Shown here in pieces: positions 6,742-40,240 of a stretch of DNA of 64,000 nt. Both the position numbers and the translations under genes were made by a program. The stretch comes from Streptomyces sp. DG1A-41 (lineage in GTDB: Bacteria; Actinomycetota; Actinomycetes; Streptomycetales; Streptomycetaceae): NCBI RefSeq assembly GCF_037055355.1, contig NZ_CP146350.1, positions 3,991,001-4,055,000 on the forward strand. Direction: 5' to 3'. How positions within the stretch are numbered: position 1 is the stretch's first letter; each line of letters begins with the position of its first letter. Under the pieces are notes generated by a model. It saw only the letters and a program-made list of their open reading frames with translations, had not been told where the DNA came from and made no database searches.

Positions 6742-6888
6742 ACCGCCCATGTCCTTACACCACCCATGCCGGAATCCCGTCGTGCGAGGAGGGCCGTCAT
6801 CCCCTCGCGGACCTGCGGGGAGGGGAACGGCCGGGCCGACAGCGCGGTCAGGCCGGCCGCGTCCCGGTCGAAGACCTCCAGCACCCTA
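6738..6888 (-). pseudogene. Enoyl-CoA hydratase-like C-terminal remnant at island border
   Basis: A minus-strand frame ends TGA at 6738 and reads VLEVFDRDAAGLTALSARPF then PSPQVREGMTALLARRDSGM. This resembles the C-terminal helices of the enoyl-CoA hydratase/isomerase family. Similarity starts abruptly near 6888, exactly where IS-like sequence begins, so roughly 200 N-terminal residues are missing. Its stop overlaps the TetR start. The family is inferred from the short tail; another acyl-CoA enzyme is possible. It marks the left junction of the 33-kb island. Confidence 0.55.
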
Positions 6889-6892
6889 ACCG

Positions 6893-7085
6893 TGAGAGGG
6901 CGTTTGATGTAGGCGGATTGTCCCGCTTATTTCCTAGTAGGTTCCTCACCAGGTGGGTGTGGTCTCGTCCGTGATGAGCTTGGCGAAGTTGTCGAAGAAG
7001 GCGATGTGAATCAGGCTTCGGAGCTGGCGGGCAGCATCTCGTAGCCGCGGGCGAGGCGGCGTGCATCATGATCCATCCGATACTG
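6893..7085 (-). mobile_element. IS5-type transposase C-terminal remnant and probable IS end
   Basis: Minus-strand peptides read RRLARGYEMLPASSEA and, after one frameshift, LIHIAFFDNFAKLITDETTP followed by TW and a stop at 6946. Both match the C-terminal tail of IS5-family transposases (H-RRLARDYE-P-SEAMIH-A). The sequence CTAA followed by GAGAGGGCGTTTGATG at 6886-6906 resembles an IS5-type terminus with its target. Only about 45 codons survive and they are frameshifted, so the element is dead. Confidence 0.6.
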
Positions 7086-7149
7086 GCTGCCGGCTGCTCT
7101 GAGATGGGCGTCCCGCTTGAGCCGGCTCGCTTCTTGGCCATACCCCTCG

Positions 7150-7393
7150 GCCCCCGCGACGGCAACGATCTGCGCCTTGCCGACTGGCAGGACAGCACCC
7201 GGGTTGCCGGCCTGCCTCACCTGCACTCCTCGCCCGCGGCCTGTAGCAGGAACTGGACGCGGTCACCGCAGCCCTCACTCGCCCTGATCACAACGGCGGT
7301 GCCGAAGGCGTCGATCACCAGGACGAGCTGATCAAGCGCCAGATGTATGGCACAGCCGGCCTTCCCCTCCCCCGCCACCGCATCCTCCTCTGA
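7150..7393 (+). mobile_element. ISL3-family transposase C-terminal remnant
   Basis: A plus-strand frame reads GNDLRLADWQDSTRVAGLPH then LHS. After a frameshift and one TAG it continues QELDAVTAALTRPDHNGGAE, GVDHQDELIKRQMYGTAGLP and HRILL, ending at TGA 7393. This is the C-terminal signature of ISL3-type (IS204/IS1001/IS1165) transposases, where E-GV--K-KLIKRQMYGRAGF is diagnostic. The catalytic N-terminal parts are gone. It abuts the IS5-type remnant, so the left border took more than one insertion. Confidence 0.7.
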
Positions 7394-7448
7394 CGAGGTC
7401 ACCGGCAGCGGCCACCAGGCAGGACTCGGCGCATGCTCGCCTGGACCG

Positions 7449-8012
7449 CTATCCGGTCCGCATGGCAGAGGCGATCTGTCCCACCACCTCGTCGATCTGG
7501 GCCAGGCACTGATGTACATGTTCTGCAGGAGCGCCAAGAGGGTCCATCACGTCGATCTCACCGGTGTGCGCCGGCATGACACCGCGGCGAGCGGCCGCGC
7601 CCTTGACGAGGGCCGGAAACCGTGCGGCGGTATCCACCACACCTGCGGCGTCCTCTGGTCGCACCAGCTGAGCGAATTCCCGGGCGGTGAATGCACGGGA
7701 CAACGCGCGCACAGGGGACAGCCGCACAGCGGCCTCACGATGCTCCGTGGCAGCGCCCAGCACCAGGTCCGCGTTCTCCACCATCTCCTTGGTCAGGCGG
7801 CGGGAACCCGTCCCGCAGGGCTGCACGCCACGGCCGAGGAGGAAGGAGGCAACAGCAGCCGCCATGGGCGTGCCCTCAACGGCACCGGTTCCCGCGCTGC
7901 TCAGATGGAGCATACGCCGATGCTCGAACAGCCGATGCCTGAGCAGGCACTCGGCAAGCGGAGAGCGATAGACGTTGCCGGTGCACACCACGAGTACGCG
8001 GAACGGGGGCAT
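7449..8012 (-). CDS. Low-molecular-weight protein-tyrosine phosphatase (Wzb-like)
   Basis: Cytoplasmic phosphatase expected to dephosphorylate the tyrosine autokinase of the same cluster and so cycle polysaccharide chain-length control. With ATG 8012 (GGAG five bases upstream; a GTG at 8018 is also in frame) the protein is 187 residues. The P-loop CTGNVYRS (CX5R) is at residues 10-17 and the general-acid motif VMDP is near residue 155. The family usually runs 140-180 residues, so the length is normal. Its partner kinase is 27 kb away at the other end of the island. It opposes the DUF4012 gene. Confidence 0.9.
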   Translation of the reverse strand: MPPFRVLVVCTGNVYRSPLAECLLRHRLFEHRRMLHLSSAGTGAVEGTPMAAAVASFLLGRGVQPCGTGSRRLTKEMVENADLVLGAATEHREAAVRLSPVRALSRAFTAREFAQLVRPEDAAGVVDTAARFPALVKGAAARRGVMPAHTGEIDVMDPLGAPAEHVHQCLAQIDEVVGQIASAMRTG

Positions 8013-8482
8013 ACACACTCCAGAGGGACCGCCGGCGGGACTTCAAAGCCTTTCGTCCACAGCAGCGGTTGGTGCCCTGGGCATCGGAGATCTCAACACC
8101 ATCGCGCCGAAGCCGCCCGGCGAACCGCTGGCGAGAACATCGGCACAGAATAACCAATCGGAATGTGCACGTTGGCAGCGTCGCCCCTCGTGTCGGGACA
8201 GCGGGCCCCCTGGGTTATGCGGTGATTCCGGTGGTCCAGAAAACCGGCGGCGATCCGGCGATCGGCATACGCCATACAGTGCCTTATCTCCTGGACATGC
8301 TTAGCAAGCACTGTTCGTCGCTGTTCATGGACGTACCGTCCTCACGTGGCCTCCACGCTCACGGCAGCCTCCGCTGTTCCGCTCGTGATCGCAGTCGTAG
8401 GGGCGTCCTGTTCACCTCCAGCCGTATTCGCCCGAGCCCCCACCTGACCGCACCGCACCGCACCGCCGACGGAGGCGGCACC
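8013..8482. other. Divergent intergenic region, no gene recognised
   Basis: These 470 bases separate the phosphatase and the DUF4012 gene. The DUF4012 frame stays open back to 8069, but the peptide before 8483 is not protein-like and has no SD. Promoters for both genes must lie here; no confident -35/-10 or repeat was seen apart from a run of CACCGCACCG units at 8447-8464. Confidence 0.4.
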
Positions 8483-10420
8483 GTGAAGGGGATCGCCAGC
8501 GCTAAGAGTTCACTGGAAAAGGACGGTGACGTCAGCCCCATGGCTGAAGAATCACGGATCACTGATTCATTCATGCGCTTGCGACGGCGCCTCAAGCTCC
8601 CCGGAAGTGCAGGGCGGTCCGTACTCGCCGAATCGCGCCGCTTCCCGAGGCCTCGGGCCCGGCAGGTCCTGTGGGCCGCCGCCCTCCTGTGCCTCGCCGG
8701 GATGGCTTGGATCATGGCCACCGGCCTGCTTGTCCGGGCGGAGCTCATGGCTGCTCAGCGGTCGCTGGAGACGCTTCGGTCTGCGGCCATGGGGGCCGCG
8801 GGGACCGCAGACCCGGCCGCGGGGGCCGCAGCACGAGAGGCGGCGATGCGTTCCGCGGCGGCACACGCCGCCCGGGCGCATCGCCTCACCAGCGGACCGG
8901 CCTGGTACCTCCTCGCGCACACCCCGTACGTCGGTCGGCCCGCAGAAACAGTTCGCGGCATCACGAAGGCCGCCGACCGGTTGACTCACGATGTACTTCC
9001 GCCGGTCGTGGACGTCGCTTCGCACGTCGCGCGTGACTCCCGTGGAGGAGGCTTCGCAGCCCTGCTGCCCGCCTTGGGCAGCCAGGCTCCGGCTCTGGAA
9101 CGGGCGGCGAGTGTCGCCGCAGAGACGCGCGCGGAGGTCCGACAAATGCCCGGCAGCACATGGCCCCAGGCGGTCGGTCACGCACACACGCAACTCGTCC
9201 GGCTGCTCGACCGGATCGTGCCCGCCACGGCAGATGCCGCAGTGGCCGCCCGGGTACTGCCGCCGGTGCTGGGACAGCACAGCCCTCGGCGGTACTTCGT
9301 CGTCGTGCAGAACACGGCGGAAGTCCGTGGCACCGGCGGCATGCCCGGGGCCTTCGCCGTGCTCACCGCCGACCGGGGACAACTGGACTTCGAGGCCCTC
9401 GGCAACGACGACGCGGTAACGGGCGCGAACCCCAAGGTCGATCTGGGAGCCGAGTTCACCGCTCGCTACGGCCGGGCCCAGCCCACCCGGTACTGGGCCA
9501 ACTCCAACCTCAGCCCACACTTCCCCCACGCCGCCCGTATCTGGGCGGCAACCTGGCACCAGCGCAGCGGTCGGCAGGTGGACGGGGTCGTAGGCCTGGA
9601 CCCCACCGTTCTGTCCCGACTGCTCAGCGTGACAGGTCCGGGACGACTGGCCGACGGCACGCAGCTCACCGCCGGCAATGTGCTGGATCTTGCGGAACGC
9701 ACCGGCTACGCGCGCTACCCCGACGACGCGCAGCGCAAGGCGTTCCTCCTGGATGTGGCGCGCACGGCGACCGGCAGCCTGGTGAACGCCCTCCAGGACC
9801 CGCGGCGGCTCGCCGGACTGGTCAGGGCCGCTTATGGCGAGGCGGCCGAGGGACGGCTGAAGATGTGGAGTGCCCGGGAGGACGAGCAGCGTCTTCTGGC
9901 CACCCGGCCCTGGGGCGGCACGTTTCCCGACGATCCCGGTCCCTTCGCCGGACTCGTCATCAACAACGCCGCCGGCGGGAAGCTCGACTACTACCTCGAG
10001 CGGGAGCTGAGCTGGACCCCGGGCCGCTGCACGTCTCGTGGCCGGCTCGTCACCGCACGGATCACGCTCAGGAACGCGGCTCCGACGTCAGGACTTCCCG
10101 CGTACGTCACCCAGCGGGGCGACAAGCCGCCGTACAAGACCCGGCCGGGCGACAATCGGCTGCTGGTCTCCTACTACGCCAGCGTCGGCGCACACCTCAC
10201 CGGCGCGTCCCTCGACGGTCGGCCCACCAACGTGGGAAGTGGCGTGGAGCGACGGCACCCGGTCTACACGCTGGATGTGGAACTGCCCGCGCAAGGCGCC
10301 CGGATCCTCACGCTCGACCTGGTCGAGCCGATCAGCGACCGCGAACCCGTACTCTGGCGCCAGCCGCTGGTCACACCGCTGCGGGCGCATGTGGGGTCCT
10401 ACCCGGCGTGCGGCGACTGA
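8483..10420 (+). CDS. DUF4012-family membrane-anchored protein
   Basis: A 645-residue protein with a basic cytoplasmic N-terminus of about 75 residues, one transmembrane helix (VLWAAALLCLAGMAWIMATG) and a long extracellular part. The latter matches DUF4012: RYFVVVQNTAEVRGTGGMPG, then DPTVLSRLLSVTGPG and GKLDYYLERELSW. This family recurs in actinobacterial and Gram-positive polysaccharide loci but has no proven reaction, and its Asn/Thr-rich core suggests a sugar-polymer partner. The start is GTG 8483 because GGAGG at 8471-8475 is seven bases upstream; ATG 8540 is in frame with a weaker SD. It likely acts at the cell surface in export or attachment of the glycan. Confidence 0.8.
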   Translation: MKGIASAKSSLEKDGDVSPMAEESRITDSFMRLRRRLKLPGSAGRSVLAESRRFPRPRARQVLWAAALLCLAGMAWIMATGLLVRAELMAAQRSLETLRSAAMGAAGTADPAAGAAAREAAMRSAAAHAARAHRLTSGPAWYLLAHTPYVGRPAETVRGITKAADRLTHDVLPPVVDVASHVARDSRGGGFAALLPALGSQAPALERAASVAAETRAEVRQMPGSTWPQAVGHAHTQLVRLLDRIVPATADAAVAARVLPPVLGQHSPRRYFVVVQNTAEVRGTGGMPGAFAVLTADRGQLDFEALGNDDAVTGANPKVDLGAEFTARYGRAQPTRYWANSNLSPHFPHAARIWAATWHQRSGRQVDGVVGLDPTVLSRLLSVTGPGRLADGTQLTAGNVLDLAERTGYARYPDDAQRKAFLLDVARTATGSLVNALQDPRRLAGLVRAAYGEAAEGRLKMWSAREDEQRLLATRPWGGTFPDDPGPFAGLVINNAAGGKLDYYLERELSWTPGRCTSRGRLVTARITLRNAAPTSGLPAYVTQRGDKPPYKTRPGDNRLLVSYYASVGAHLTGASLDGRPTNVGSGVERRHPVYTLDVELPAQGARILTLDLVEPISDREPVLWRQPLVTPLRAHVGSYPACGD

Positions 10421-10481: not shown

Positions 10482-11602
10482 TCAGGCTGCTGCTGCCCGC
10501 CGCCTGCGAGCCCCGTCCGCCAAGGCCGCGTAGACGTCGTCGAACCATTCGGCGGTGGTGGCCACGTCCACCGAAGAGGTGTCGGCCAGCGCTCCGGCGG
10601 AGAGCGCCGCGTGCACCTCGGGACGCATGGCGCGCAGGACGGCCTCGGCCAGCCGTTGCGGGGACCCGGGCTGGACGAGGACGCCGTTGTCACCGTCGCG
10701 GACCAGGTCGGGGATGCCTCCGATCGCCGGGGCCACCACGGGCACGCCGGACGCGATGGCCTCCATGACCACCACGGGCATCGCTTCGTGGTGCGACGAC
10801 AGCACCAGGGCGTCGGCCGCCGCCACCAGCCGGCCTGCCGCACCCGACCCAGGTAGCGCACCCGGTCGCCCAGCCCCCGTCGGTCGATGTCCGCGAGCAC
10901 CTGTTCTCGCAGTGGCCCGTCCCCGGCGAGGACGAACAGCGCGTCAGGACGCCGGCTCAGCACCACTTCGGCCGCATCGAGCATCATCGGGTGGTTCTTC
11001 ACCGGGCGGAAGTTCGCGACGAATGCCAGGACGAAGGCGTCGCGGGGGATTCCGAACTCGGCCCGCACCTGGTCCGCCTGCCGGGCCCAGCCGCGCTGGA
11101 GGGCGACGTCCACGCCGTGAATGCGGGTGCGGACAGCACGGGCGCCCCGCACGGTCCTGGAAGCCGCCACCTGCGGTGAGACGGCCACTGTCAGGTCGTC
11201 CAGACGGCGGGTCGTCCGGTTGACCAGTCTGGTCAGCGGGTGACACGACACACAGTGCACCGTCGAGACCAGCGCCGGCCGCGAGCGCCTCAGATGCAGG
11301 GCCGGGCGCAGGACCGCCGCGAGCAACGGTGAGTGCACATTGACCACATCGGGAGCCAGCCGCCGCACCACTGCCACCATCCTGAGGTAGCGCCGCCACC
11401 TTGGAGAGGACCGAAGGTCGACGACCGTCACTCCGCAGTCCCGGAGTGCGTTCACCAGTTCCTCCGTCGCCGCCCGCAGGAAGACCACGGTGTAGTCGCG
11501 GCCGGTCCGCGGTGCCTGGCGCAGGCGGTTCACGAGGAGAACCTCGGCACCGCCCACGTCCAGGGTCTTGATCACTTCGCAGATCCGTGTCGTCTTCACC
11601 AC
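10482..11602 (-). pseudogene. GT4 glycosyltransferase, frameshifted near 10840
   Basis: Retaining GT-B glycosyltransferase. The N-terminal half reads CEVIKTLDVGGAEVLLVNRL and continues through LAFVANFRPVKNHPMMLDAA and LVLAGDGPL to YLGRVRQAG. The C-terminal GT4 signature then continues in another frame: LVAAADALVLSSHHEAMPVV and IASGVPVVAPAIGGIPDLV. The break is in the GC-rich run near 10835-10850. A single-base change would restore one ORF of about 372 residues, normal for GT4. It follows the WecA-like gene by 39 bases, and GGAGG precedes the GTG start (11602, or 11599). It is either an inactivated enzyme or a sequencing error. Confidence 0.85.
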
Positions 11603-11641
11603 GCCGCCCTCCCAGGCCGAGCGAACTTGTGTGATCGCCCG

Positions 11642-12841
11642 TCAGTCCCGGCTCGGGTTCGGTGCCGGCGGACCGCTGGCCGCGGGGAACATCGCGCTGG
11701 TCTTGCCGACTTCCCGACTGTGCGGTACGTCTGCCGACTGGACGCGACGCCCGGGCGTTCCGCCGCGCCTCAGTGTCCCGACCGGACGCGCCGTGCGTCC
11801 CGGAGCACTGGCCCGGGCCTCGGTGTGCTGGGGAAAGCCTGCAGTGGAGGGGACCCTGAGCAGCAGCCGCACCGCCACGGCGCCCACCAGGACGGCGCCG
11901 ACGAGCGCGCCCCCTGGAGCGACCGCCCCGTGCGTCACGAGCGCCCCGGCCAGGCAGCCCAGGGCCGCGACGAGGCAGAGGGCACGCACAACCTGCTGGA
12001 CCGTCATCCCCATCCGTCGCAGCCGGTGGGTCATGTGATCCGTGCCGCCCTGCAGCAGCGGCCTCGACTCCCGGTAGCGGGACGTCATCACCAGTACGGT
12101 GTCCACCGTCGGGATCAGAGTGACCAGCAGAAGTACGACGGGAACGGACAGGCCGTCGGCACCCCGGTGGAGCACCATCACCCCGGAGGACAACGTGAAG
12201 CCGAGAAAGAGAGAACCCGCGTCTCCGAGGAAGATGCGTGCCGGGTGCCGGTTGTGGAAGAGGAAGCCGAGACAGGCTCCGGCCAGGGCCGCCATCACTA
12301 CGCCAGGGCCGCCGGACGCGACGGTGAGGCAGACCAGTCCGCCGATGACAGCACACAGCGAGGAAGCCACGCCGTCCATGTTGTCCAGCAGGTTGAACGC
12401 GTTCGTCATGAAGACGATCCACAGGACGGCGAGCACCGCGTCGAACGCGCCGCCGAAGAGCGTCGGATGCCCCCCCACCAGGACTACCGTCGCGGCAGCC
12501 GACGTCTCGACGCACAACCGGATGCGCGGGCCGAGCTGGCGCAGATCGTCGACGAGCCCGAGGGCGCACACGATCGTCCCGCAACCGAGCAGCACCGCGA
12601 GAGCCGGGTCGAGGACACCGCGGGCGAGCGCGGCGGCCATACCCGCGGCTAGGGTGGCGACCGCGACCGCGACACCCCCCAGATAGGGCGTCGGCCGGGT
12701 GTGCGCCTTGCGGGCGGTGGGCCGGTCGGTGATCCCACGGAGCACGGCGAAGCGCCGCAAGGGCTCCGTGAGCACGAGTGCGAGCAGCAGCGCCGCAGCG
12801 CCTGCTCCCGCCGTCCAGAGCGCCGAACTCACGCCGGCCAT
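11642..12841 (-). CDS. WecA/MraY-like polyprenyl-phosphate HexNAc-1-phosphate transferase
   Basis: Integral membrane enzyme that loads the first sugar-1-phosphate, commonly GlcNAc-1-P, from a UDP-sugar onto undecaprenyl phosphate and so starts repeat-unit assembly. The family marks are clear: an N-terminal helix, ARKAHTRPTPYLGG near residue 43, VDDL at 97-100, the catalytic NAFNLLDNMDG at 147-157, IFLGDAGSLFLG near 200, and TDHMTHRL in the cytoplasmic loop. About ten hydrophobic segments are present. The ATG at 12841 lies inside the 3' end of the epimerase gene (13-base overlap), so the two are translationally coupled. The C-terminal ~70 residues are Arg/Pro-rich and unusual. Confidence 0.88.
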   Translation of the reverse strand: MAGVSSALWTAGAGAAALLLALVLTEPLRRFAVLRGITDRPTARKAHTRPTPYLGGVAVAVATLAAGMAAALARGVLDPALAVLLGCGTIVCALGLVDDLRQLGPRIRLCVETSAAATVVLVGGHPTLFGGAFDAVLAVLWIVFMTNAFNLLDNMDGVASSLCAVIGGLVCLTVASGGPGVVMAALAGACLGFLFHNRHPARIFLGDAGSLFLGFTLSSGVMVLHRGADGLSVPVVLLLVTLIPTVDTVLVMTSRYRESRPLLQGGTDHMTHRLRRMGMTVQQVVRALCLVAALGCLAGALVTHGAVAPGGALVGAVLVGAVAVRLLLRVPSTAGFPQHTEARASAPGRTARPVGTLRRGGTPGRRVQSADVPHSREVGKTSAMFPAASGPPAPNPSRD

Positions 12842-13917
12842 GGTGCTGCCAGGGCGGTCTCGGAAACGAGTGTGCCGGCCGCCGGGACACGCTGTCCCGA
12901 GTGCTCCAAGGCCGCCGGTACGGGCGCCGGCAGGTTGCCGTGCCATTCGGCACGGGCATCCGCGATCGCGTCCGAGAGGATGTCGGAGAGCGTGCGCCGA
13001 GGCCGCCAGCCGGTCAGGACGCGGAGCTTCGTGGTGTCCGGGACTCGGCGTTCCATGTCCTCGAAACCTGGTCCGTACGCTTCGTCGTACGACAGATGCT
13101 CCACCGGGGAAGGGCTCTTGGCCTGAGTGATGATCAGGTCGGCGAGCTCCCGGATGCTGATCTCGTCGTCCGCGCCGATGTTGAAGATCTCTCCTTCCGT
13201 GCCCGGGCGTTCCAGCAGGAGCAGCAGAGCCGCGACGGCGTCGGCGACATGCAGGAAGCAGCGTCTTTGACGGCCGCTCGCATGGATCGTGAGGGGCTCC
13301 CCTCGGACCGCCTGCCGGGCGAAGCGCGGGATGACCATTCCGTACGCCGGACTCTGGCGGGGCCCCACGGTGTTGAAGAACCGGACCACGGTCGACCGCA
13401 GCCCTCGCTCACGGTGGTAGAGACAGGCCATGATCTCGTCCACTGCCTTGGCTGTGCTGTACGACCAACGGGCCACGGAAGGGCTGCCCAGGATGCGGTC
13501 GGAGGTCTCGGTGAGCCGTCCGGAGGAATTCTTTCCGTAGATTTCCGAGGTGCTCGCGATCAGGATCCTGCGTTCATGGCGGTACGCGGACTCGATGACC
13601 GTTTCAGTGCCCTTCGTGTTCGTGATGAAGGATGTCAACGGCTGTTCGACAATGAGTTTGACCCCTACGGCGGCAGCCAAATGAATGACAGAATCGCACT
13701 CCTGCACCAGCCTGTCGACGAGCGGCGCGTCCAGAACGGAGCCGCGCACGAAGCTGAAAAGCGGATTCGCCTCCGCCCGGGCGATGTTTCCCGGTTGCCC
13801 GGTGGAGAGGTCGTCGAGGACCACCACGCGGTGCCCCTCGGCCAGCAGCGCGTCGACGAGATGGGAGCCGATGAAGCCAGCCCCGCCGGTAACCAGGTAT
13901 TTCGAACAATGATCCAT
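12829..13917 (-). CDS. NAD-dependent sugar-nucleotide epimerase/dehydratase (SDR)
   Basis: Extended SDR of 362 residues. The Rossmann motif TGGAGFIGSHL is at residues 10-20. The substrate motif is IASTSEIYGKNSSG, the catalytic pair is YSTAK, and VVRFFNTVGPRQ and RRCFLHVADAVAALL match UDP-sugar epimerases/decarboxylases. It probably converts a UDP-hexose or UDP-uronic acid into a repeat-unit precursor; C4-epimerase and UDP-glucuronate decarboxylase activities cannot be separated by eye. First gene of a three-gene minus-strand operon with the WecA-like and GT4 genes, divergent from the UDP-sugar dehydrogenase, which may supply its substrate. Confidence 0.87.
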   Translation of the reverse strand: MDHCSKYLVTGGAGFIGSHLVDALLAEGHRVVVLDDLSTGQPGNIARAEANPLFSFVRGSVLDAPLVDRLVQECDSVIHLAAAVGVKLIVEQPLTSFITNTKGTETVIESAYRHERRILIASTSEIYGKNSSGRLTETSDRILGSPSVARWSYSTAKAVDEIMACLYHRERGLRSTVVRFFNTVGPRQSPAYGMVIPRFARQAVRGEPLTIHASGRQRRCFLHVADAVAALLLLLERPGTEGEIFNIGADDEISIRELADLIITQAKSPSPVEHLSYDEAYGPGFEDMERRVPDTTKLRVLTGWRPRRTLSDILSDAIADARAEWHGNLPAPVPAALEHSGQRVPAAGTLVSETALAAPWPA

Positions 13918-15458: not shown

Positions 15459-15727
15459 CCGTCCCCCCGCGCGCCCTGCCCGAGCCGGGAAGGTTCCAGC
15501 GGACAGGCTCCACGGTCGTCTGCTGCGGTCCTCGGCAGCCTGCCAGCTCGGCGGCGATGCGATCGCGGTGGCAGGTCACGGCGGCATTCGCGACACGCTC
15601 TGATTGACAGGGAGACGCAGCCGCGGATGAGCGGTCCACCGTCAGCGGAGGTGCCGCCGGATTTCCCAGGCACCGGAGAAAGATCAGCCAACGGACACCA
15701 AGCCGGACAGGCATCGCTGGAGGCGTG
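15459..15727. other. Intergenic gap, nothing recognised
   Basis: About 270 bases between the dehydrogenase and the flippase, both on the plus strand. No convincing hairpin terminator or relic gene was found, apart from GGAGG at 15719-15723 that serves the flippase start. A separate flippase promoter is likely given the distance. Confidence 0.35.
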
Positions 15728-17128: not shown

Positions 17129-17177
17129 GAGGGCGCCACCACGTCGAAGGCGGCAGGAGTAATTGCCGATTCCTGGA

Positions 17178-17519
17178 TCAGTTGAGCTGCTCGGGCTGAC
17201 GATTCTCGAGCTCGTCGGGCTTGCTGATGCCGCGGCGGGCCAGCATCCATCGCTGCCGGATCGGCTCATCGCCATCGAACTCGGTCACGGCGGGCGTACG
17301 AGCGGCGGCCCAGTCGTAGAACCGTTCGCCCTTGGCCCCCGACCCCGCTGCGAAGCCGGTGTCGTCGGGGATAAACACGCCGCCTGACTGGCCGAGTTGT
17401 TCGGCCACGTAGTCCCGCATCCGCCGCCGGGCCTCCACACGGCAAAAGCGGGCTCCGGTTCGCAGGAAGAGTTCTTCGAGTTCCAGGTCCCAGGCGTTCG
17501 TCGGTACGTCGTGCATCAC
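17178..17519 (-). mobile_element. IS701-type transposase remnant with in-frame internal deletions
   Basis: The minus-strand ORF joins pieces that are normally far apart in IS701-type DDE transposases: LELEELFLRTGARFCRVEAR (N-terminus), RDYVAEQLGQSGGVFIPDDT then GF (first catalytic Asp region), and FYDWAAARTPAVTEFDGDEP with RWMLARRGISKPDEL (central region). The pieces are in order, but about 60 and 100 residues appear to be missing between them, and the C-terminal catalytic Glu region is absent. It cannot be active. The family is recognised by motif; exact element unknown. Confidence 0.6.
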
Positions 17520-21511: not shown

Positions 21512-21739
21512 GAGTTGCTGGGACACAGCACCACACGAGGCACTGCGGTGCCTCCATGTGTGTGATCGGCCGTGTCACCTGCCGCCGCGGCGGTTTCGAC
21601 ACCCACTGGAAGTCGTCGCCCTGTACCAAGGATGGAGACCGGGATGATGATGCCGACCACGCTGGCCGGAAAGAGCGCATGTGCACGCGTGACCGTCGGT
21701 CCCGGTCACCGGCGCTCAGGCCAGGTCGGCCAGTGCGGT

Positions 21740-23353: not shown

Positions 23354-23422
23354 TCGACTTCTGGCCATCGAGTAGGCCGACGTTGCGCCGTCGGCAGGGA
23401 AGGCACGCTCGTTCTCAGCGTA

Positions 23423-30777: not shown

Positions 30778-30805
30778 CAGCCCTCCTTCGACTCCATCTT
30801 CGCGG

Positions 30806-31789: not shown

Positions 31790-31976
31790 CACGGATCCCC
31801 TTCCGTCGGCACAGCCCGCGCCGCACATCAGCGGTCGCGGACTGTCGCCAGTGAACCGAACGCCACATTCTTACCGAATTGGGCGATATTTACGGTTCAG
31901 ACATTCTGGACACTTCCGTGATTGCGCCCGCAGGTGGGAGCCGAGGGTCGGCATCGGCTTCGCTTTCCGTCCGCCG

Positions 31977-32858
31977 TCAGACCGTCTCGGCGAGCCGCGC
32001 TTCCACTTCCCGGCGCCGCTGACGGCACACGGCCAGTACGTCGGCCTGCCCCGGGCGAAGCGGATCCGGGGCCGCGACAAGCCTGTTGCTGTGCGGGTCG
32101 TAGAGCACCACGTCGTAACCGTGGTCACCGAGCCACCGCCGGACCTCACGCGCCGTGGAGCCGAAGCGGTGGAGGAACCTGTCGACGAGTTCGAGCATCC
32201 ACACCGCCGGCTCACTCCGGGCGACGAAGCGATCCGCGCCGCGCAGCGCCAGGTGCTCCGCACCCTCGACATCGAGCTTGCCCATGGCGAAGGGACGCTC
32301 GGGCAGGGTGTCGTCGAGTCGGCCGAGCCTCACCCGCACGGTGTTGCCGCTGTCGGCATCCGTCCTGATGCGCGAGCCCGTACCCCTGATGACGAACGAC
32401 GTCGTACCCGGTTCCGCTCCGATCGCCATTTCGTGGACGGTCACACACCCGAGGGAATTCGCATCTACGTTGTCCCGCAGCCGTTGGGCGAACGCGGGGA
32501 CGGCCTCGAAGGAGTGCACGGCTCCGCTCGGACCCACGAGTTGTGCGGCGAGCAAGGTAAACATTCCCTCGTTGGCGCCGCCGTCGATGAATCCGTCCCC
32601 TGGACGGAGATAGCGCTTCATGAAGGTCATTTCCTCGTAGTCGGGAAGTCCCCCGAAGTAGACGAAACGACCCGGCTGCGTGCTGTCGGGGTAGGCACGG
32701 AACGACAAGTCGCCGTACACCGACAAGTCGACCGGCCGCCGGACCAGTCGCTTCCATGCCTGCCACCCGGCCATGCCGGCCAGGGCCCGGGCCCGCCGCC
32801 CACGGTTGGCGGGATGTTCCCAGGCCAGTCTGACCATCCCAGGAATGGTTGTCGGCAA
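31977..32858 (-). CDS. FkbM-family methyltransferase
   Basis: A 293-residue protein with a basic N-terminus. Motif I reads GDGFIDGGANEGMFTLLAAQ near residue 90, then VHSFEAVPAFAQRLRDNVD and the FkbM core MGKLDVEGAEHLALRGADRF near 195. Both Asp and Glu of DVEGAE are present, unlike in the FkbM protein at 20690. Predicted sugar O-methyltransferase. The start is TTG 32858 with GAGGAG six bases upstream, only 12 bases after the stop of the frameshifted glycosyltransferase, so the two form an operon. Confidence 0.88.
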   Translation of the reverse strand: MPTTIPGMVRLAWEHPANRGRRARALAGMAGWQAWKRLVRRPVDLSVYGDLSFRAYPDSTQPGRFVYFGGLPDYEEMTFMKRYLRPGDGFIDGGANEGMFTLLAAQLVGPSGAVHSFEAVPAFAQRLRDNVDANSLGCVTVHEMAIGAEPGTTSFVIRGTGSRIRTDADSGNTVRVRLGRLDDTLPERPFAMGKLDVEGAEHLALRGADRFVARSEPAVWMLELVDRFLHRFGSTAREVRRWLGDHGYDVVLYDPHSNRLVAAPDPLRPGQADVLAVCRQRRREVEARLAETV

Positions 32859-32870
32859 GGTCTGCTCCTC

Positions 32871-34000
32871 TCAGTGTCCGGCGAGGGCACGCCGCCGTCC
32901 CAGCGCCGCCTGGTACCACTCGTCCACGCGCCGGGCGACCCGGGGCCAGTCCAGTTCCGTGGCCGCGCGCAGCCCGAGTTCAGTCATCCGGTGACGGCCC
33001 GCCTCGTCGTCGAGCACGGTTCTCAGGGCGTTCACCAGGTCCGCCTTCGACCCGGACGGAAAAACCCGGTACGCCTCGCGGACGGACACCACGGGATCCA
33101 GCAGGGCGTCCGAGGACACCACCACGGGCGTTCCGAGCGCCAGCGCCTCCAGAGCCGCCGTGGGCACGCCCTCGCCCTTTCCGGGGAGTCTTCGTGAGGC
33201 GAGTACGAACACCTCGGCTCGCCGGACCAGGTCGTAGACCTCCTGCCGGGGCAGGGCGCCGAGGAGTTCGACGCCCGGACCCGCTGCCGCGAGCCGGCGA
33301 GGCGGTCACGCTCCGGCCCTTCGCCTGCGATGACGAGTCGCGCCTCCGGTCGGCTGCTCGCCAGTTCGTGGAACGCCTCGATGAGCAGACCGTGGTTCTT
33401 CATCGGGTTCAACGCGCCGACGCTGACGATCAGACCCCGCTCACGAGCCCGGACGTCGACGGAAGGCGGCATGGCGGACAGCTCAAGGCCGCTGGACATG
33501 GTGAGGATGCGTCTCGGGTCCACGCCACGCGCCACGAGGTCGGCAGCGGTCGCCGACCCCAGCGCGATGAACGCCTCCACACTGCGGAAAGCACGCCGGG
33601 CTAGCCACTGGTGCCGGCCGGCGAGTGCCGCGTGGACCGTCAGGAACAGCGGGATTCCCAGCCGTCGGCAGACGGGCCCCAGCCAGGCGGCCTCAACGTA
33701 GTCGCCGTGAAGGTGCACGAGGTCCACGGCGCGTCGTGTCGAGCCGGCGCAGAGGTCCGTGATCGCGGCAGCCGTTGCCGCCGAGAACGCGAGCCGGTCG
33801 GACGCCGGCGCCAGCACCCGGGACGGGGTGGTCCTTTGCAGCGGCAGCCGCGTGGCGCCCACCGGTACCGCTGCACCATGCCGGAACGAGAGCGTCACCC
33901 GGTTTCCGCCACGTACCTGATGGTGCGTCAGGCTCTCGACGTGACGCTCCATTCCGCCCTGCATGGGAGGGATCCGGTAGCTTACCCGCACGATGTGCAT
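32871..34000 (-). pseudogene. GT4 glycosyltransferase, frameshifted near 33300
   Basis: The 5' part from ATG 34000 reads MHIVRVSYRIPPMQGGMERH, VDLVHLHGDYVEAAWLGPVC, VSVGALNPMKNHGLLIEAFH and LVIAGEGPERDRLAG. Then the frame changes, and the GT4 C-terminus continues as VFVLASRRLPGKGEGVPTAA then LEALALGTPVVVSSDALLDP in another frame to the stop at 32871. The break lies in the repetitive GGCTCGCGGCAGCGGG near 33290-33305. One base would restore a protein of about 375 residues. Codon use on both sides is normal, so the event is recent or an artefact. Confidence 0.85.
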
Positions 34001-34105
34001 CGTCGCGTTGCTCCACCTTGTGTGAATCGGACACACTGAAGGATCGCGATGTTTCGTGCTTTATCGCGCCCGCCCCGCCGATCTTCACTGGAACGGAAGA
34101 GCCGT

Positions 34106-34972
34106 TCAGCCCTCGGAGTCGCCGGTGCGCCCGGCCGGAACCAAGGTCACGCGGAACGTCTTGGGCCAGAGCTTGCCGGTGATCAGGAACTGGTCGGTGC
34201 CAGGGACGGCCGCGATACCGTTCAGCGCGGATCCGTGCACACGTTCGCCCTTGCGAAGCAGGCCCGAGGCGTCGATGCTCGCCGTCACCGCACCGGTGGC
34301 GGAGTCGATGCGCACGATGCGATCGGTGAACAGGACGTTGGCGTACACCGCCTCGCCGACACACTCGAGTTCGTTCAGCTTCGTCACCGGTCGGCCGCCC
34401 TGGGTGACGTTGATGTCGCCTGTCCTCGCAAGTGTCCTCGGATCCCGGTAGGTCAGCCGCGATGATCCGTCGCTCGTCACCAGCCGGTCTCCGGACCGCT
34501 GGTAGCACACGCCCCAGCCCTCGTCGGGGTACGGGACACGACGCACCTCCGACAGCGTCCTGGCGTCGCGTTCGATGGCGAGGCGGTTCCGCCAGGTGAG
34601 CTGCCACAGCTTCCTGCCGACCACGGTGATGCCCTCCCCGAACAGCGGTGCTGGCAGCGCCTTCTGGAGTGTCGGGTGCCGTCCGGGCGGACCCGCCCGC
34701 ACCGAGGAACGACCGACCAGGCCAGTGCTCTCGTACAACGTGCCGCCGGCCACCTCCAACCCCTGAGTGAAGGCCCGCGGGTCGTGCGGAAGAACCTCGA
34801 GCACCATGACCCTCAACTGCTCCACGCCGCCGGAAACCGACTCGCCCTTCGCTGCCCTGGTCCCGGCGACCGCGCCGGACGCGGGGTGTTTTCTCGCTTC
34901 CTCCGCCGCGCAGGAGGCGAGCAGCGCGCCCGAGAGCACGGCTACCACTGCGCATCGCAGACGTTCGGACAC
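34106..34972 (-). CDS. Glutaminyl-peptide cyclotransferase-like lipoprotein
   Basis: Resembles bacterial/plant-type glutaminyl cyclases, secreted beta-propellers that turn N-terminal Gln into pyroglutamate. With GTG 34972 (GAGGAG eight bases upstream) the 288-residue protein starts with a signal peptide ending in lipobox LLASC, so it should be lipid-anchored outside the membrane. Family marks are DPRAFTQGLEVAGGTLYEST with GLVGRSSVR, LFGEGITVVGRKLWQLTW, and LNELECVGEAVYANVLFTDR. The enzyme is divergent from the tyrosine-kinase gene within a polysaccharide cluster, an unusual setting. It could have a non-enzymatic sugar- or protein-binding role. Confidence 0.83.
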   Translation of the reverse strand: MSERLRCAVVAVLSGALLASCAAEEARKHPASGAVAGTRAAKGESVSGGVEQLRVMVLEVLPHDPRAFTQGLEVAGGTLYESTGLVGRSSVRAGPPGRHPTLQKALPAPLFGEGITVVGRKLWQLTWRNRLAIERDARTLSEVRRVPYPDEGWGVCYQRSGDRLVTSDGSSRLTYRDPRTLARTGDINVTQGGRPVTKLNELECVGEAVYANVLFTDRIVRIDSATGAVTASIDASGLLRKGERVHGSALNGIAAVPGTDQFLITGKLWPKTFRVTLVPAGRTGDSEG

Positions 34973-35282
34973 GGCAGAAACTCCTCGCTTCACGGTGACC
35001 TTGAGCGGCGGCCTCTGACCAAGAGTGCTTACACCGGCGAACAGTGAGCATGACTGTCGAACCGTGCGGCCCTGCGGAAAAGCCACCAGATGGTGCAGCG
35101 CCCGGTCGGCACGGTGGACCAGGCGCCCTCAACCGACAGGTGTCTGCCTACAGGGCTGTTTGTCGGGCCGACATTGGGGTGGCTACACCGGCTGAGGTGT
35201 TCGATCCCCTACCTTCGCCACTACGTAAAGGGAACAATGTGCCACCTTCGGGCGATTCGCCTGGTTCTATGAGAGGTGCAGT
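34973..35282. promoter_or_regulatory. Divergent promoter region, cyclase/tyrosine kinase
   Basis: These 310 bases separate the two divergent genes. GAGAGG at 35271-35276 is the SD for the TTG start of the kinase. The sequence is somewhat richer in A/T near 35205-35240. No operator or terminator was recognised. Confidence 0.4.
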
Positions 35283-36743
35283 TTGGATCTCCGAGGATTT
35301 TTGAAGGCTCTTGCCAGACGTTGGCCGACTGCCGTGGTCTGTCTGGTCCTCGCTGTCGGCGCCGCGTGCGCCGCCACCGGCTTGAGCACCCCCACCTACG
35401 AGGCGCGCACTCAGCTCTTCGTCGCCACCCGCAGTGGCGAGGACATGGTTCAGCTGACGCAGGGGCAGAGCTTCTCCCAGGCGCGTGTGCAGTCGTACGC
35501 CTCGATCGTCACCACCAGCCAGGTGACCCAGCCCGTGGTACGTAAGCTGAGGCTGCGCACCACACCGGAGGAACTGGCGTCTCGGATCACCGCCGAAGCC
35601 CCGCTCAACACCGTGCTCATCAACATCAACGTCCGGGATACCGTTCCCAAGCGTGCCGCGAGCATCGCCAACGCCGTCGCGGAGCGTTTCACCGTCGTCG
35701 TCGAGCAACTGGAAACACCACCCAGGCCGGCACCCCCGAAGCCGACCGGCGCGCGACAGTCGGTACCTCCTCCGCCCGTCTCGCCCGTCGCGCTGGGCAT
35801 CACCCAGAAGGCGACCACGCCCGCCGCCCCGGTCTCGCCACGTCCGTTGCTCAACCTGGCCGTCGGAGTGCTCGGTGGCCTGCTGGTCGGGGCCGGGCTG
35901 GTGGTCCTGCGTGAAACTCTCGACACCACCCTGAAGACCAGTCGGGCGCTCACCGAGTTCTCCGGGTTGCCGGGCCTGGGATCCATCCCGTACGACAAGC
36001 AGGCACCCAGACGGCCGCTCGTGACCACAGCGGGGCAACACTCCCCGCGCGCCGAGGCGTTCCGGAAGCTGCGCACGAACCTGCAGTTCGCCCAGGTCGA
36101 CGATCGTCCCCGGATCATCATGGTGACCAGTTCGGTGCCTGGCGAGGGCAAGACCAACACCGCGGCGAACCTGGCTCTCTCCCTCGCGGAGGCGGGCGCC
36201 TCCACCTGCCTGGTGGACTGCGATCTGCGCCGCCCCTGCGTGGCCAAGACCTTCGGCCTCGTCCAGGACGCCGGACTGACCACCGTGCTGATCGGGCAGG
36301 CCCGCGTCGGGGACGTCATCCAGCAAGCCGACGATCGGCTCGCGGTGCTCGCCAGTGGCCCGAAGCCACCGAACCCCACCGAGTTGCTCGGCTCGACCCG
36401 TATGAGCGAACTGCTGAGTGAGCTAACGAGCACCTACGACGTGGTGATCATCGATACGGCGCCGCTGCTGCCGGTCGCCGATACCCTCGGACTCGCTCCG
36501 CTGGCCCAGGGCACGCTGCTCGTCGTCCGCGCCTCGAAAACCAGCCGTGACCAGGTCCGTGCCTCCGTCGAGGCCCTGGAACGCGTGGGCAGTCGCGCCC
36601 TGGGCACCGTCTTCAGCATGGCCGCGGCACCGAAAGGCGCCGGCTACGACACCTACAGGGGCTACGGCGAACTGCCCGCACCGCGCATGTCGGCCCACCT
36701 GGACGAGAGCGGCGCGCCTGCGGCGACAGCAGGTGAGAAGTGA
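35283..36743 (+). CDS. Wzc-like polysaccharide co-polymerase/tyrosine autokinase
   Basis: Membrane protein controlling chain length and export of the polysaccharide. In its 486 residues, a Wzz domain is framed by transmembrane helices at about 14-33 and 189-208, with a Pro-rich stretch at 146-187. The BY-kinase follows: Walker A SSVPGEGKT (283-291), Walker A' LVDCDLRRP (310-318) and Walker B VVIIDTAP (387-394). The Tyr cluster after 450 is short (Tyr455, 458, 461), far fewer than in E. coli Wzc. The start is TTG 35283 with GAGAGG six bases before it. Both domains are fused in one chain, as in other actinobacteria. The cognate phosphatase is at 7449. Confidence 0.92.
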   Translation: MDLRGFLKALARRWPTAVVCLVLAVGAACAATGLSTPTYEARTQLFVATRSGEDMVQLTQGQSFSQARVQSYASIVTTSQVTQPVVRKLRLRTTPEELASRITAEAPLNTVLININVRDTVPKRAASIANAVAERFTVVVEQLETPPRPAPPKPTGARQSVPPPPVSPVALGITQKATTPAAPVSPRPLLNLAVGVLGGLLVGAGLVVLRETLDTTLKTSRALTEFSGLPGLGSIPYDKQAPRRPLVTTAGQHSPRAEAFRKLRTNLQFAQVDDRPRIIMVTSSVPGEGKTNTAANLALSLAEAGASTCLVDCDLRRPCVAKTFGLVQDAGLTTVLIGQARVGDVIQQADDRLAVLASGPKPPNPTELLGSTRMSELLSELTSTYDVVIIDTAPLLPVADTLGLAPLAQGTLLVVRASKTSRDQVRASVEALERVGSRALGTVFSMAAAPKGAGYDTYRGYGELPAPRMSAHLDESGAPAATAGEK

Positions 36744-37094: not shown

Positions 37095-37679
37095 TCAGGA
37101 CCTGCGGCGACGGCGCATGGCGAGCATCGTCCCTCCACCGACTGCGGCCAGTCCGGCCGCCGCACCACCCAGCATCATCAGCGTCTCGTCGTTGCCCGTG
37201 TCCGCAAGCCGGCCATGATGGCCGCGGTGGTCCCCTCTGCCGTCGTGGCCGTAGTGGTCGTCGCGACCGTCGTCGCCGGGACAGTCGACATCGCCCGCGG
37301 GGGGCAGTACCTCGAGGGGCGCACGAAGGATCAGATCGGGGTCGTGCGCGAACAGCTTGAAGGTGTGAGGGCCGGGCGGGGTGCACTCGGGGATGGTCAC
37401 CGTGCCCTCGACAACTCCCTGCCTGTCGGCTTGGAACCGGCCGAGCACGACCTTCTTCGAGAACAGCACCGCCGTGACGGGGGCCTGGTTGGGGGCGAAG
37501 CCCGTTCCTGTGAAGCTGACGTCTTCTCCGGCCTCCACCGTGTCCGAGGAGAGAGTCAGGCCTGGACCAGGGGGCGGGTACTGGGCGTGGGCTGTGCCTG
37601 CGCCGACCAGCGGCGCGGCGATGACAGCAGCGGATGCCGCCGACGCCAGGGCAACCCGCCACAGCGGTGAGTTTTTCAT
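37095..37679 (-). CDS. LAXTG sortase-anchored surface protein
   Basis: A 194-residue secreted protein. The signal peptide ends near AHAQ (residue 33). An Ig-like/IPT-type segment follows (LTLSSDTVEAGEDVSFTGTG, VTIPECTPPGPHTFKLFAHD). Residues 129-156 are dominated by Asp, Gly and His (DDGRDDHYGHDG). The sorting signal is LADTG at 158-162, with a hydrophobic segment and an Arg-rich tail. LAXTG is the motif of actinobacterial class E sortases, so it should be covalently attached to the cell wall. ATG 37679 has GAAAGG eight bases upstream; ATG 37688 is less likely. It may link to or support the surface polymer. Confidence 0.87.
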   Translation of the reverse strand: MKNSPLWRVALASAASAAVIAAPLVGAGTAHAQYPPPGPGLTLSSDTVEAGEDVSFTGTGFAPNQAPVTAVLFSKKVVLGRFQADRQGVVEGTVTIPECTPPGPHTFKLFAHDPDLILRAPLEVLPPAGDVDCPGDDGRDDHYGHDGRGDHRGHHGRLADTGNDETLMMLGGAAAGLAAVGGGTMLAMRRRRRS

Positions 37680-37744
37680 TTTCTGCACCTTTCAGGATTG
37701 AGGTCAGGTGGGGTAACGCAACGTCGGCCTCACATCAAGACCTG

Positions 37745-37767: not shown

Positions 37768-37854
37768 TCGATCCGTCACAGCTTGAGCTCGACCAGAAGT
37801 CACCGGATGGTGTGGCGCTCGCTGGTCCGTCTTGCGCATGCCTGTCGCCTGACG

Positions 37855-38307
37855 ATGGATCGTGCGACGACCGAGTTGGTAGCCGCTCCGGCAGCGACGG
37901 GAGGATCCACCTGGTCCGGTCCCTTCGGGGCGGACACCGAGGTCGCCCGCTCCGGCTGCTACGCCCGGGTCACCGGTAAGCGGCCGAGTGCCGCTCACGA
38001 CGACCGGCTGCCCGTCGAGGGCGTGTCGTGGTGGGACGCGGTAAAATTCTGTGACGCGCTGTCCAGGGCGGATGGACTGACGCCCGCGTATCACCTGGGC
38101 GATGACTCCGAGTCGGTCGACTGGGACGTCTCCGGTGACGGGTACCGGCTGCCGACCGAGTCCGAGTGGGAGCACGCCGGTCGGGCCGGCAGCAGCGGGC
38201 CGCGGTCGGGGCGGCTCGATGAGATCGCCTGGTATCGCGGCAACTCGGAGGAGCGGATCCGTCCCGTGGGCGGCAGGCAGGCCAACGCGTGGGGCCTCTA
38301 CGGATGA
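37855..38307 (+). pseudogene. Truncated FGE/sulfatase-modifying-factor domain
   Basis: From about 37976 the frame reads DRLPVEGVSWWDAVKFCDAL, SGDGYRLPTESEWEHAGRAG and RPVGGRQANAWGLYG and then stops. These are consecutive FGE-sulfatase (SUMF1) motifs. The normal continuation (G-L-DM-GNV-EWC with the catalytic Cys region) is absent, and the N-terminal core is also short: intact proteins run 250-350 residues. Downstream DNA reads DDYDSVPKHGN in another frame, hinting at an internal deletion. It is probably a dead relic of a formylglycine-generating-like or glycan-binding enzyme. Confidence 0.65.
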
Positions 38308-38575
38308 CTACGACTCCGTACCGAAGCACGGCAACTCCAGTGCCCGTCGGCCCAGCCACCGCCCCGCAACACCCGAGGTCATGCTGGGCACGGTCGCCTG
38401 TCTCCGGAACGCCTCGGGAACACCGGTGGCCGACGCCGGGCCGGGTGAGGCGGCCAGGACTGTGACGGTGCCTGTCGCGAAGGCCCCTATGGGACACGCC
38501 CCCGGTCCGGCGGCAGCGAGCACCGCCTCCGACAGTGGTCGGCAGATCAAGATCTGTGGGCGAGTCTCTGTGCGT

Positions 38576-39802
38576 TCAGGACCGCTCCTCGCAGTCCGGA
38601 CCGGTGAGGCGCTCGGCGAATCGTGACCCTACTGCCAGGACCATGAGCACCGCGGTGCAACCTCCCAGCAGCATGACCGCGGACGGAGAGGTGCGGTCCA
38701 GGGTGACTCCCCCTACGAGTGCACCGAAAGAGATTGTTGCCTGGAAGGAGGCGGTGAACAGGACCGATGCCGCTTCTGGGGCATGCGGCGCACTCTTGGA
38801 GAACCACGTCTGGGACGCAACTGGTACGGCGCCATACGCGATGCCCCACACGATCAGCAGCATCACTGCGCCCGTCTCCCAACGGCCCAACGCTGGAAGC
38901 AGAAGGGTCACCGCGGCGATCAGGCCGGCCGCGAGCCCGAAGACGGTCCGCGGATACCGGGCCACCCAGGCGCCGCCCAGGAAGTTGCCGAGGATGCCAG
39001 CGGCACCGTAGAGCAGCAGGAATGTAGTGATCAGACCGGCGCCGGCGTGGGTGACCTGTTCCAGGAATGGTGTCACGTAGGTGTAGGTACCGAAGTGAGC
39101 CAGCACAACGACGAACGTCAGCAGGAGTGCAAAGCGGGTACTGGCGCTGCGGAGCATGCCGCCGAGGACGCTCAGTCGGGTGGCCCGGACCGGAGGAAGC
39201 GGCGGCACGAACAAGAGCAGCATGACCAGTACGCCGACCGTCAGAGCTCCCATGACGGTGAAGGCCGTTCGCCATCCGGCGAGATCTCCGATGAGGGTGC
39301 CCGTCGGCACGCCGAGGACGGATCCCAGCGGGACGGCGGAGAAGATCACAGCAGTTGCCCTGCCGACCGAGGCCGGCGGCACCAGTCGTTCCGCCAACCC
39401 GGCTCCGATCGACCAGAAGCCGCCGATCGCGATCCCGACCATGATCCGGGAGGTCAGTACGAGCCAGTAGTCGGGTGCCGCGGCGGCAAGGAAGTTCGCC
39501 AGTGCCAGCAGGAGCATGAAGACGCAGAGCATCAGTCGGCGGTCGAAGCGTGCCGTGGCCGCGGTGACCAGTGGAGCGGCGATCGCCGCCAGGAAACCGG
39601 GCATGGTCATCATCAGTCCAGCCATCCCGTCCGAGACGGTGAAACTGGATCCGATCGAGGTCAGCAGACCGATCGGCAGGATTTCGGTGGTGACGATGAC
39701 GAAGATTCCCAGCATCACCGAGACCACGGCCAGCCACCCCATCAGCGGGGATCGAGAGGATAAGAGTTGGCCGTTGACTGAAGCGGCGGTGGTTGCCGAC
39801 AT
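38576..39802 (-). CDS. MFS efflux transporter (DHA1/AraJ-like)
   Basis: A 408-residue protein with twelve hydrophobic segments. The family motif A lies after helix 2 as ATARFDRRLMLCVFMLL (G/A-x-x-x-D-R-R). Helix 4 reads LVLTSRIMVGIAIGGFWSIG and helix 5 carries FSAVPLGSVLGVPTGTLIGD, the antiporter motif C-like region of DHA1 drug/sugar exporters. ATG 39802 has AGGACGGGA upstream. It stands alone near the right island border and has no obvious tie to glycan synthesis; drug, purine or sugar efflux are possible. Confidence 0.88.
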   Translation of the reverse strand: MSATTAASVNGQLLSSRSPLMGWLAVVSVMLGIFVIVTTEILPIGLLTSIGSSFTVSDGMAGLMMTMPGFLAAIAAPLVTAATARFDRRLMLCVFMLLLALANFLAAAAPDYWLVLTSRIMVGIAIGGFWSIGAGLAERLVPPASVGRATAVIFSAVPLGSVLGVPTGTLIGDLAGWRTAFTVMGALTVGVLVMLLLFVPPLPPVRATRLSVLGGMLRSASTRFALLLTFVVVLAHFGTYTYVTPFLEQVTHAGAGLITTFLLLYGAAGILGNFLGGAWVARYPRTVFGLAAGLIAAVTLLLPALGRWETGAVMLLIVWGIAYGAVPVASQTWFSKSAPHAPEAASVLFTASFQATISFGALVGGVTLDRTSPSAVMLLGGCTAVLMVLAVGSRFAERLTGPDCEERS

Positions 39803-39974
39803 GGCGTCCCGTCCTGTGAAAGGCAGCGCGTTTCGCGATCAGTCCAGCAGACCTCATCGAGGGGTGGCTGGCAGATCTGCAACCGCACCCTTGCCCTTCA
39901 CGGGTGATGTCGCCTTTCCGCCGACAACGGTGAACGCGATGACTACCGCATCGCGGCTCGACTGGTCGCGTCAC
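39803..39974. other. Intergenic region left of IS remnant
   Basis: Upstream region of the MFS gene, reading away from it. Plus-strand DNA from about 39905 may already belong to the transposase (frame with stops). Nothing else is seen. Confidence 0.3.
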
Positions 39975-40240
39975 TGACGGGCACGGCACCCCGCTCGCGG
40001 TCATTCTCATCAAAGGCAACCGCAACGACGTTACCCAGGTGATGCCACTGCTGGACGCCGCCCCACCAGTTCGCGGCCGGGTCGGTCGTCCCCGCCGCAA
40101 CCCTGGCTCCATGCTCGCCGACCGCGGCTACTACCACGGCATCTGCCGCGACAAGGTCCGTGTCCGCCGGATCGTGAAACAACCGAGCCGACATCCATGA
40201 GGCGTCCCTGAAACTCGCCTGCTGCCTCGCCACCCATCGG
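39975..40240 (+). mobile_element. IS5-family transposase remnant at right island border
   Basis: Plus-strand peptides read GNRNDVTQVMPLLDAAPPVR then GRVGRPRRNPGSMLADRGYY, a highly typical IS5-type block containing the second catalytic Asp (LADRGY). After a frame change come RRIVKQ and DIHEASLKLACCLATHRQL, the C-terminal end of such transposases with the segment around the catalytic Glu deleted. The remnant ends about 28 bases before the stop of the core EamA gene, so it marks the right junction of the island. Confidence 0.75.

Follow-up and report, generated by a model that had tools for sequence, protein, structure and literature searches.

What occupies the locus of the Streptomyces sp. DG1A-41 chromosome at which related streptomycetes carry an operon of acyl-CoA genes, and what would its genes make? 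The window analyzed here is a stretch of 64,000 nucleotides (bases 3991001-4055000 of a single-contig genome of 8.99 Mb); positions are those of the window, with (+) or (-) for strand. A first-pass annotation, made from the letters of the window, had described a 33-kb exopolysaccharide island inserted into a core locus between insertion sequence (IS) scars. We found a mobile gene set of 30.7 kb (7249-37929, no strand assigned) that almost certainly replaced a 9.9-kb acyl-CoA/AtuA operon. Our reading of it, to which we give an even chance as a whole, is of a modular, Wzx/Wzy-dependent surface-glycan island whose DUF4012 protein transfers the polymer to the cell wall.

The proposed pathway is as follows: a WecA-like enzyme would put a sugar phosphate on polyprenyl phosphate, and GT4 enzymes would assemble the repeat unit, in which a uronic sugar, a re-acylated amino sugar, and methyl groups may be present. 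Wzx would flip the repeat unit, and Wzy would polymerize it under the control of a Wzz/BY-kinase and a low molecular weight (LMW) phosphatase. Then DUF4012, anchored in the membrane and bearing an extracellular LCP-fold domain, would move the lipid-linked polymer to the wall, where the acceptor may be a sortase-type protein with an LADTG motif. A glutaminyl cyclase would convert the N-terminal Gln of that protein to pyroglutamate.

Replacement of a core operon

Both flanks of the locus were searched against 60 relatives, 36 of the same genus. The distance from the left end (TetR and the tail of the enoyl-CoA hydratase gene) to EamA was measurable on one contig in 28 of the 36. It was 9.5-12.5 kb in 19 genomes and larger in nine (including 21 kb in G026, 35 kb in G015, and 359 kb in G031); the corresponding distance in the window is about 33 kb. 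Seven genomes supplied eight stretches for comparison at the core locus. The closest, G009, is 96% identical in the left flank and matches the window up to 6905, at 37950-38302, inverted at 38301-38375, and from 40270 onward, where core homology restarts beside EamA. Between its flanks G009 carries an intact enoyl-CoA hydratase (PF00378), acyl-CoA synthetase, acyl-CoA dehydrogenase, biotin carboxylase, carboxyl transferase, AtuA, an MDMPI_N protein, and an FGE-like gene. This 9.9-kb operon was covered to 94-95% at 83-86% identity in five stretches (L010, L011, L012, L013, L016), to 79% at 90% identity in L014, and to 1% in L015, the second piece of G026. Its best match in the DG1A-41 genome, 67% identical over 2.7 kb, is read as a paralogous carboxylase.

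Only fragments of the operon persist in the window. On the left, the last trace is the C-terminal remnant of enoyl-CoA hydratase (6738-6905, -), assigned by frame reading and homology to G009; the first-pass annotation had noticed it as an acyl-CoA enzyme. On the right, outside the island, are a fragment of the FGE-sulfatase-like gene (37950-38302, +; PF03781; 94% identical to G009) and a further 75-base piece of the FGE locus (38301-38375, -; 96% identical, reversed). The latter is inverted relative to both G009 and G026 and adjoins a separate MFS/IS5 insertion. Because 9.9 kb of core genes are gone from the window, the operon was replaced and not merely interrupted, and the simple insertion proposed earlier is rejected. 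The earlier limits (6888-40240) also gave way, to those set by sister islands that are collinear with the window over 7249-37929 (AC555) and 7340-37911 (S. olindensis) except where stretches are rearranged or absent; extension to 40240 is rejected since core pieces appear from 37950 and the sister islands end by 37929. Integration at a tRNA site was likewise discarded, as the window holds no tRNA or tmRNA gene. The locus is a clean case of a streptomycete catabolic operon lost to a putative surface-glycan island.

The sister islands came from one scan of a species-genome collection, for which the query was the methyltransferase at 28025-28864 and which possibly omitted the records nearest the window; relatives were returned from Streptomyces sp. 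AC555_RSS877 (94%) and S. olindensis DAUFPE 5622 (82%). Both islands are mostly collinear with 7249-37929, in aligned pieces of 72-95% nucleotide identity, with rearrangements at about 20.4-24.5 kb and no match for 17066-18026 of the window. Wzy is inverted in AC555, and FkbM1 is located elsewhere in S. olindensis. The DNA flanking these islands (in AC555 about 2.5 kb on one side and 12.4 kb on the other; in S. olindensis about 16 and 15 kb) has no match in the window or in the empty-site loci, and the gene set is mobile because it stands in these unrelated surroundings. What survives of the first-pass account is thus an acquired Wzx/Wzy-type set in a core locus, between IS scars, by the shorter flank distance in 19 of 28 genomes and the occurrence of the set in unrelated flanks in two strains; its bounds, mode of entry, MFS gene, and ISL3 scar do not.

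As to the scars, IS5-family transposase fragments lie on both sides as described: at 6893-7084 (-; 81% identical to G000:C1:8876732, in an open reading frame (ORF) with PF13340/PF01609, DUF4096/DDE_Tnp_1) and at about 39982-40160 (+; about 70% identical to G000:C1:558845, in an ORF with PF13340/PF01609). A second genomic match of the left fragment (L187, G000:C1:1282800-1285000) overlaps an ORF for an APH-family phosphotransferase, not a transposase. The ISL3-type remnant was not recovered: the one presumed ISL3 transposase compared with both ends matched neither. The MFS transporter gene (38576-39802, -; PF07690), previously counted into the island, lies beyond the core FGE pieces, had no match in the core-locus stretches of relatives compared, and forms with the right IS5 scar an insertion of its own (38.4-40.2 kb).

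Within the island, FkbM1 and Wzy (20384-24470) are placed differently from the sister islands, and an IS256/Mutator-type remnant adjoins Wzy; a transposon-linked rearrangement is possible. In plasmid records, DUF4012 was found on 11, two of them from Streptomyces (NZ_CP108391.1 and NZ_CP107895.1, both large), and a search of plasmid records with Wzx returned none. A Wzx homologue, P0227, is named as located on a 60.7-kb plasmid. These three plasmids are possible vehicles for such islands. Viral contigs searched for the GNAT gene gave 18 pattern matches and no relative.

Glycan genes and the state of the window copy

The gene families make it quite probable that the island encodes a Wzx/Wzy-type surface glycan. 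Profile searches bore out most of the set first listed: the LMW phosphotyrosine phosphatase (LMWPc; 7449-8018, -; PF01451, 60.8 bits); the WecA-like polyprenyl-phosphate sugar-1-phosphate transferase (11642-12841, -; PF00953, 100.4 bits); a UDP-sugar (UDPG/MGDP) dehydrogenase, UGD (14178-15458, +; PF03721, PF00984, PF03720); the Wzy polymerase (22178-23353, +; PF04932, Wzy_C, 45.4 bits, over the cut-off of a family that includes O-antigen ligases too); and the Wzz/BY-kinase, a polysaccharide tyrosine autokinase (35283-36743, +; PF02706, PF13614; TIGR01007, 164.6 bits against a cut-off of 108.05). Three SDR genes carry PF01370: SDR1, a sugar epimerase/dehydratase (12829-13917, -), SDR2 (18028-18999, -), and SDR3 (30806-31828, -). 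Of the five GT4 glycosyltransferases, GT4_2 (18963-20171, -), GT4_3 (26718-27947, +), and GT4_4 (28865-30067, +) match PF00534, and GT4_1 (10482-11602, -) and GT4_5 (32901-34036, -) were assigned by profile search.

Two of the earlier assignments stood in part. The Wzx-like flippase candidate (15725-17128, +) is multi-pass and has no Pfam match. Database searching gave 44 homologues, some under the name of an O-antigen/teichoic acid export protein or a lipopolysaccharide biosynthesis protein and the others as hypothetical. The ORF at 15763-17199 was rejected as the flippase, the correct frame being 15725-17128. Four ORFs are of methyltransferase type: Methyltransf_24 (28025-28864, +; PF13578), Methyltransf_23 (30148-30819, -; PF13489), FkbM2 (31977-32858, -; PF05050), and the weaker FkbM1 (20384-21511, +), which at 36.8 bits falls just under the NCBIfam cut-off for TIGR01444 (37.7) and is below cut-off in Pfam. 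From UGD and the methyltransferase genes we infer uronic acid and O-methyl content. The first-pass annotation did not contain the DUF4012, glutaminyl cyclase, and LADTG genes; the GNAT acetyltransferase (24564-25418, +; PF00583), PIG-L-type deacetylase (25442-26110, +; PF02585), and WbqC-like protein (26107-26805, +; PF08889); two internal transposase remnants, one DDE_5-type (17208-17498, -) in the stretch absent from the sister islands and one Mutator/IS256-type (23423-24148, +; PF00872, 27.7 bits); or frameshifts in two GT4 genes.

Those frameshifts, one near 10832-10838 in GT4_1 and one near 33294 in GT4_5, raise a serious possibility, at clearly less than an even chance, that the island is decaying in DG1A-41 and yields no polymer, both being real mutations. 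In both sister islands the two genes are intact and free of stops, and the transposase remnants point the same way. Against decay, the remaining large ORFs are open, and single-base assembly errors would look alike; from the assembly alone, sequencing error and decay are indistinguishable.

The DUF4012 protein and a recurring kit

The DUF4012 gene (8540-10420, +; PF13196) encodes a protein of 626 amino acids with a single predicted transmembrane helix, an N-terminal hydrophobic segment at residues 47-65, as its anchor. In predicted models and fold searches, its domain at about residues 240-456 matched LCP transferases, and we regard an LCP fold as very probable. A function is hinted at because this is the fold of enzymes that attach sugar polymers to cell walls; glycan transfer by DUF4012 itself may be put at an even chance. 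Profile comparison with LCP on the best alignment gave P 0.0012. In a diverse alignment, from which the wrong-frame rows L170 and L172 were left out, E261, G266, G267, D354, and Y390 are invariant, and R263, T265, D348, and N380 nearly so. A search of solved structures by sequence gave no match. Of 296 genomes sampled in the phylum of the window, 93 had DUF4012, and a literature search, with subscription papers mostly outside it, found three papers that name it and no function beyond "auxiliary"; an LCP fold would give this widespread family a testable one. In L165 (G418; 55-2766), a single ORF of 904 amino acids joins a WecA-like domain (PF00953) to DUF4012, and ORFs of similar length occur in G438 and G479.

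The cyclase (34106-35086, -; PF05096, Glu_cyclase_2, 278 bits, profile positions 8-249 of 249) is secreted and probably a lipoprotein, the lipobox being read by eye. The LADTG protein (37095-37688, -; TIGR01167, 17.6 bits, cut-off 15.9) has a signal peptide ending in AHA before Gln, an LPXTG-type motif, a hydrophobic stretch, and a basic tail; actinobacterial LAETG models scored below their cut-offs. Left of the S. olindensis island by about 4-5 kb (11317-12000 of joined L182-L184) lies a further protein that has Asp-Gly-Tyr repeats and a C-terminus of LAETG type, and G206 has a similar one.

DUF4012 and the cyclase were linked across Streptomyces: of 295 genomes, 34 had DUF4012, 38 the cyclase, and 26 both, where about 4.4 were expected (Fisher 2.6e-21; 1.6e-20 without the genome of the window). 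In 22 of the 26, the two genes lay 40 kb or less apart. Among 33 genomes with DUF4012, the phosphatase lay within 10 kb of it in 23, the BY-kinase in 21, the LADTG gene in 18, and the cyclase in 13; the LADTG gene was directly upstream of DUF4012, on the same strand, in 14. With flanks of about 1.5 kb and 30 cyclase loci compared, 18 of 21 loci in DUF4012 genomes (the window included) had another island homologue. Kit queries on the eight core loci matched the FGE gene only.

Around this kit the sugar genes vary. Ten clusters, from the 33 further Streptomyces genomes that have DUF4012, were compared over 40-kb stretches. Most of the sugar genes recur in G129, differently ordered (Wzx 56%, Wzy 55%, PIG-L 80%, GT4_4 78%); G297, G206, and G314 have WecA, SDR1, UGD, SDR2, and GT4_2 in common with the window besides the kit; and the other six have mainly DUF4012 and the kinase in common, with phosphatase, cyclase, and LADTG variable. 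The DUF4012 cluster of G009 itself differs from that of the window and lies about 2 Mb from the core locus. A recurring anchoring and control kit is thus combined with differing sugar genes.

The residue on which the cyclase would act is conserved. A signal-peptide site could be anchored in 87 of 94 LADTG homologues, and position +1 was Gln in 76, Ala in 5, Glu in 4, and others in 2, by the third anchoring rule used, which mis-anchored P0121-P0123 and P0214 among its 11 non-Gln cases; P0121-P0123 read AHA|Q. Entropy was 0.76 bits at +1 and 1.6-3.0 bits from +2 to +12, among homologues that are not independent draws. With a crude rule, +1 was Gln in 58 of 78 LADTG relatives (16 of 94 had no site) as compared with 2 of 60 other secreted-looking proteins; a second gave 68 of 89, with many mis-anchored. 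In the ten cyclase-positive clusters read, +1 was Gln in nine and ambiguous in G314. Action of the cyclase on the LADTG protein falls slightly short of an even chance; the pairing proposes an enzyme and a substrate checkable by mass spectrometry.

Several results, together with the frameshifts in two of the five GT4 genes, count against the proposal. The only Pfam match of the DUF4012 protein at E <= 0.001 is PF13196, the arginines typical of LCP proteins are not clearly conserved (R399 varies in the diverse alignment), Foldseek with the whole protein returned no row at E <= 0.001, and LCP profile comparisons on poorer alignments were not significant (nine proteins in one run; P 0.021 in another, in which two LCP rows stood on the wrong strand). 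The Fisher values are not corrected for phylogeny. The cyclase is missing in 8 of 34 DUF4012 genomes and DUF4012 in 12 of 38 cyclase genomes; in cyclase-only genomes, none of the nine loci compared (of 12) had an island homologue within about 1.5 kb. In the window, the DUF4012 and LADTG genes are 27 kb apart. In five cyclase-negative clusters, +1 was Gln in G206, G217, and G268, Asp in G165, and Thr in G201, and the relation of cyclase status to this residue is suggestive only.

Some of these results would also suit a released exopolysaccharide, in which DUF4012 is an accessory of chain length or export and not a ligase, and the cyclase and LADTG protein are carried along as passengers. Products of this kind are usually made with WecA, Wzx, Wzy, and Wzz/BY-kinase, and eight of the 34 DUF4012 genomes lack the cyclase. 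In the accessible text of PMC5412050, DUF4012 stands by the priming transferase and wzz of a Bifidobacterium exopolysaccharide locus and is called an auxiliary protein. We hold this explanation possible but doubtful: the fold matches LCP transferases, and the kit persists together across clusters with differing sugar genes. That the LCP-like fold is structural only, DUF4012 binding a polyprenyl-linked glycan or other ligand without catalysis, is less likely than not. The missing PF03816 match would suit it, as would the diverse alignment, which shows no clear retention of the LCP arginines (R399 is variable); against it, E261, R263, D348, and D354 are near invariant and DUF4012 is fused to a WecA-like domain in G418.

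Comparison with known systems

Canonical Wzx/Wzy clusters comprise an initiating transferase, flippase, polymerase, Wzz/BY-kinase, and glycosyltransferases; to these the island of the window adds DUF4012, the glutaminyl cyclase, and the LADTG protein. A literature search on cyclotransferase, Streptomyces, and polysaccharide, with subscription papers mostly outside it, found no paper. The Ebosin (ste) cluster of Streptomyces sp. 139 is also a Streptomyces exopolysaccharide cluster of similar size, with 27 ORFs; compared by description, not by sequence, its accessible text names no polymerase, flippase, or DUF (PMC4347597). In a biofilm transcriptome, DUF4012 appears among the hub genes, according to the accessible part of PMC7917626.

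The exopolysaccharide/capsular polysaccharide locus of Bifidobacterium longum 105-A resembles the window in that a priming transferase and wzz are neighbors of DUF4012. Its priming enzyme is an undecaprenyl-phosphate galactose phosphotransferase, that of the window WecA-like, and DUF4012 is called auxiliary there without mention of a fold in the accessible text (PMC5412050). A survey of the CPR cites DUF4012 as an auxiliary protein, and LytR is not mentioned in the accessible text of either paper (PMC5412050, PMC6744442).

The proposed transfer of the glycan to the LADTG protein is modeled on Actinomyces oris, in which LcpA is genetically linked to, and glycosylates, the sortase-anchored GspA (accessible text of the review PMC7831098; also PMC6381275). 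In both systems an LCP-fold protein is linked to a sortase-anchored protein, here through the 14 genomes, of 33, in which the LADTG gene directly precedes DUF4012. By this analogy the LADTG protein might be the glycan acceptor, which we judge improbable. Equally improbable as a whole is the most far-reaching form of the proposal: DUF4012 as a divergent branch of LCP-type transferases for Wzx/Wzy glycans, attaching the polymer in streptomycetes to a sortase-anchored LADTG protein sealed with pyroglutamate by the co-encoded cyclase, in a mobile capsule system that makes, anchors, and protects. The island differs from the A. oris pair in that DUF4012 is not PF03816, glycosylation of the LADTG protein is here a prediction, and DUF4012 and LADTG stand at opposite ends of an island that adds the cyclase and a full Wzx/Wzy set.

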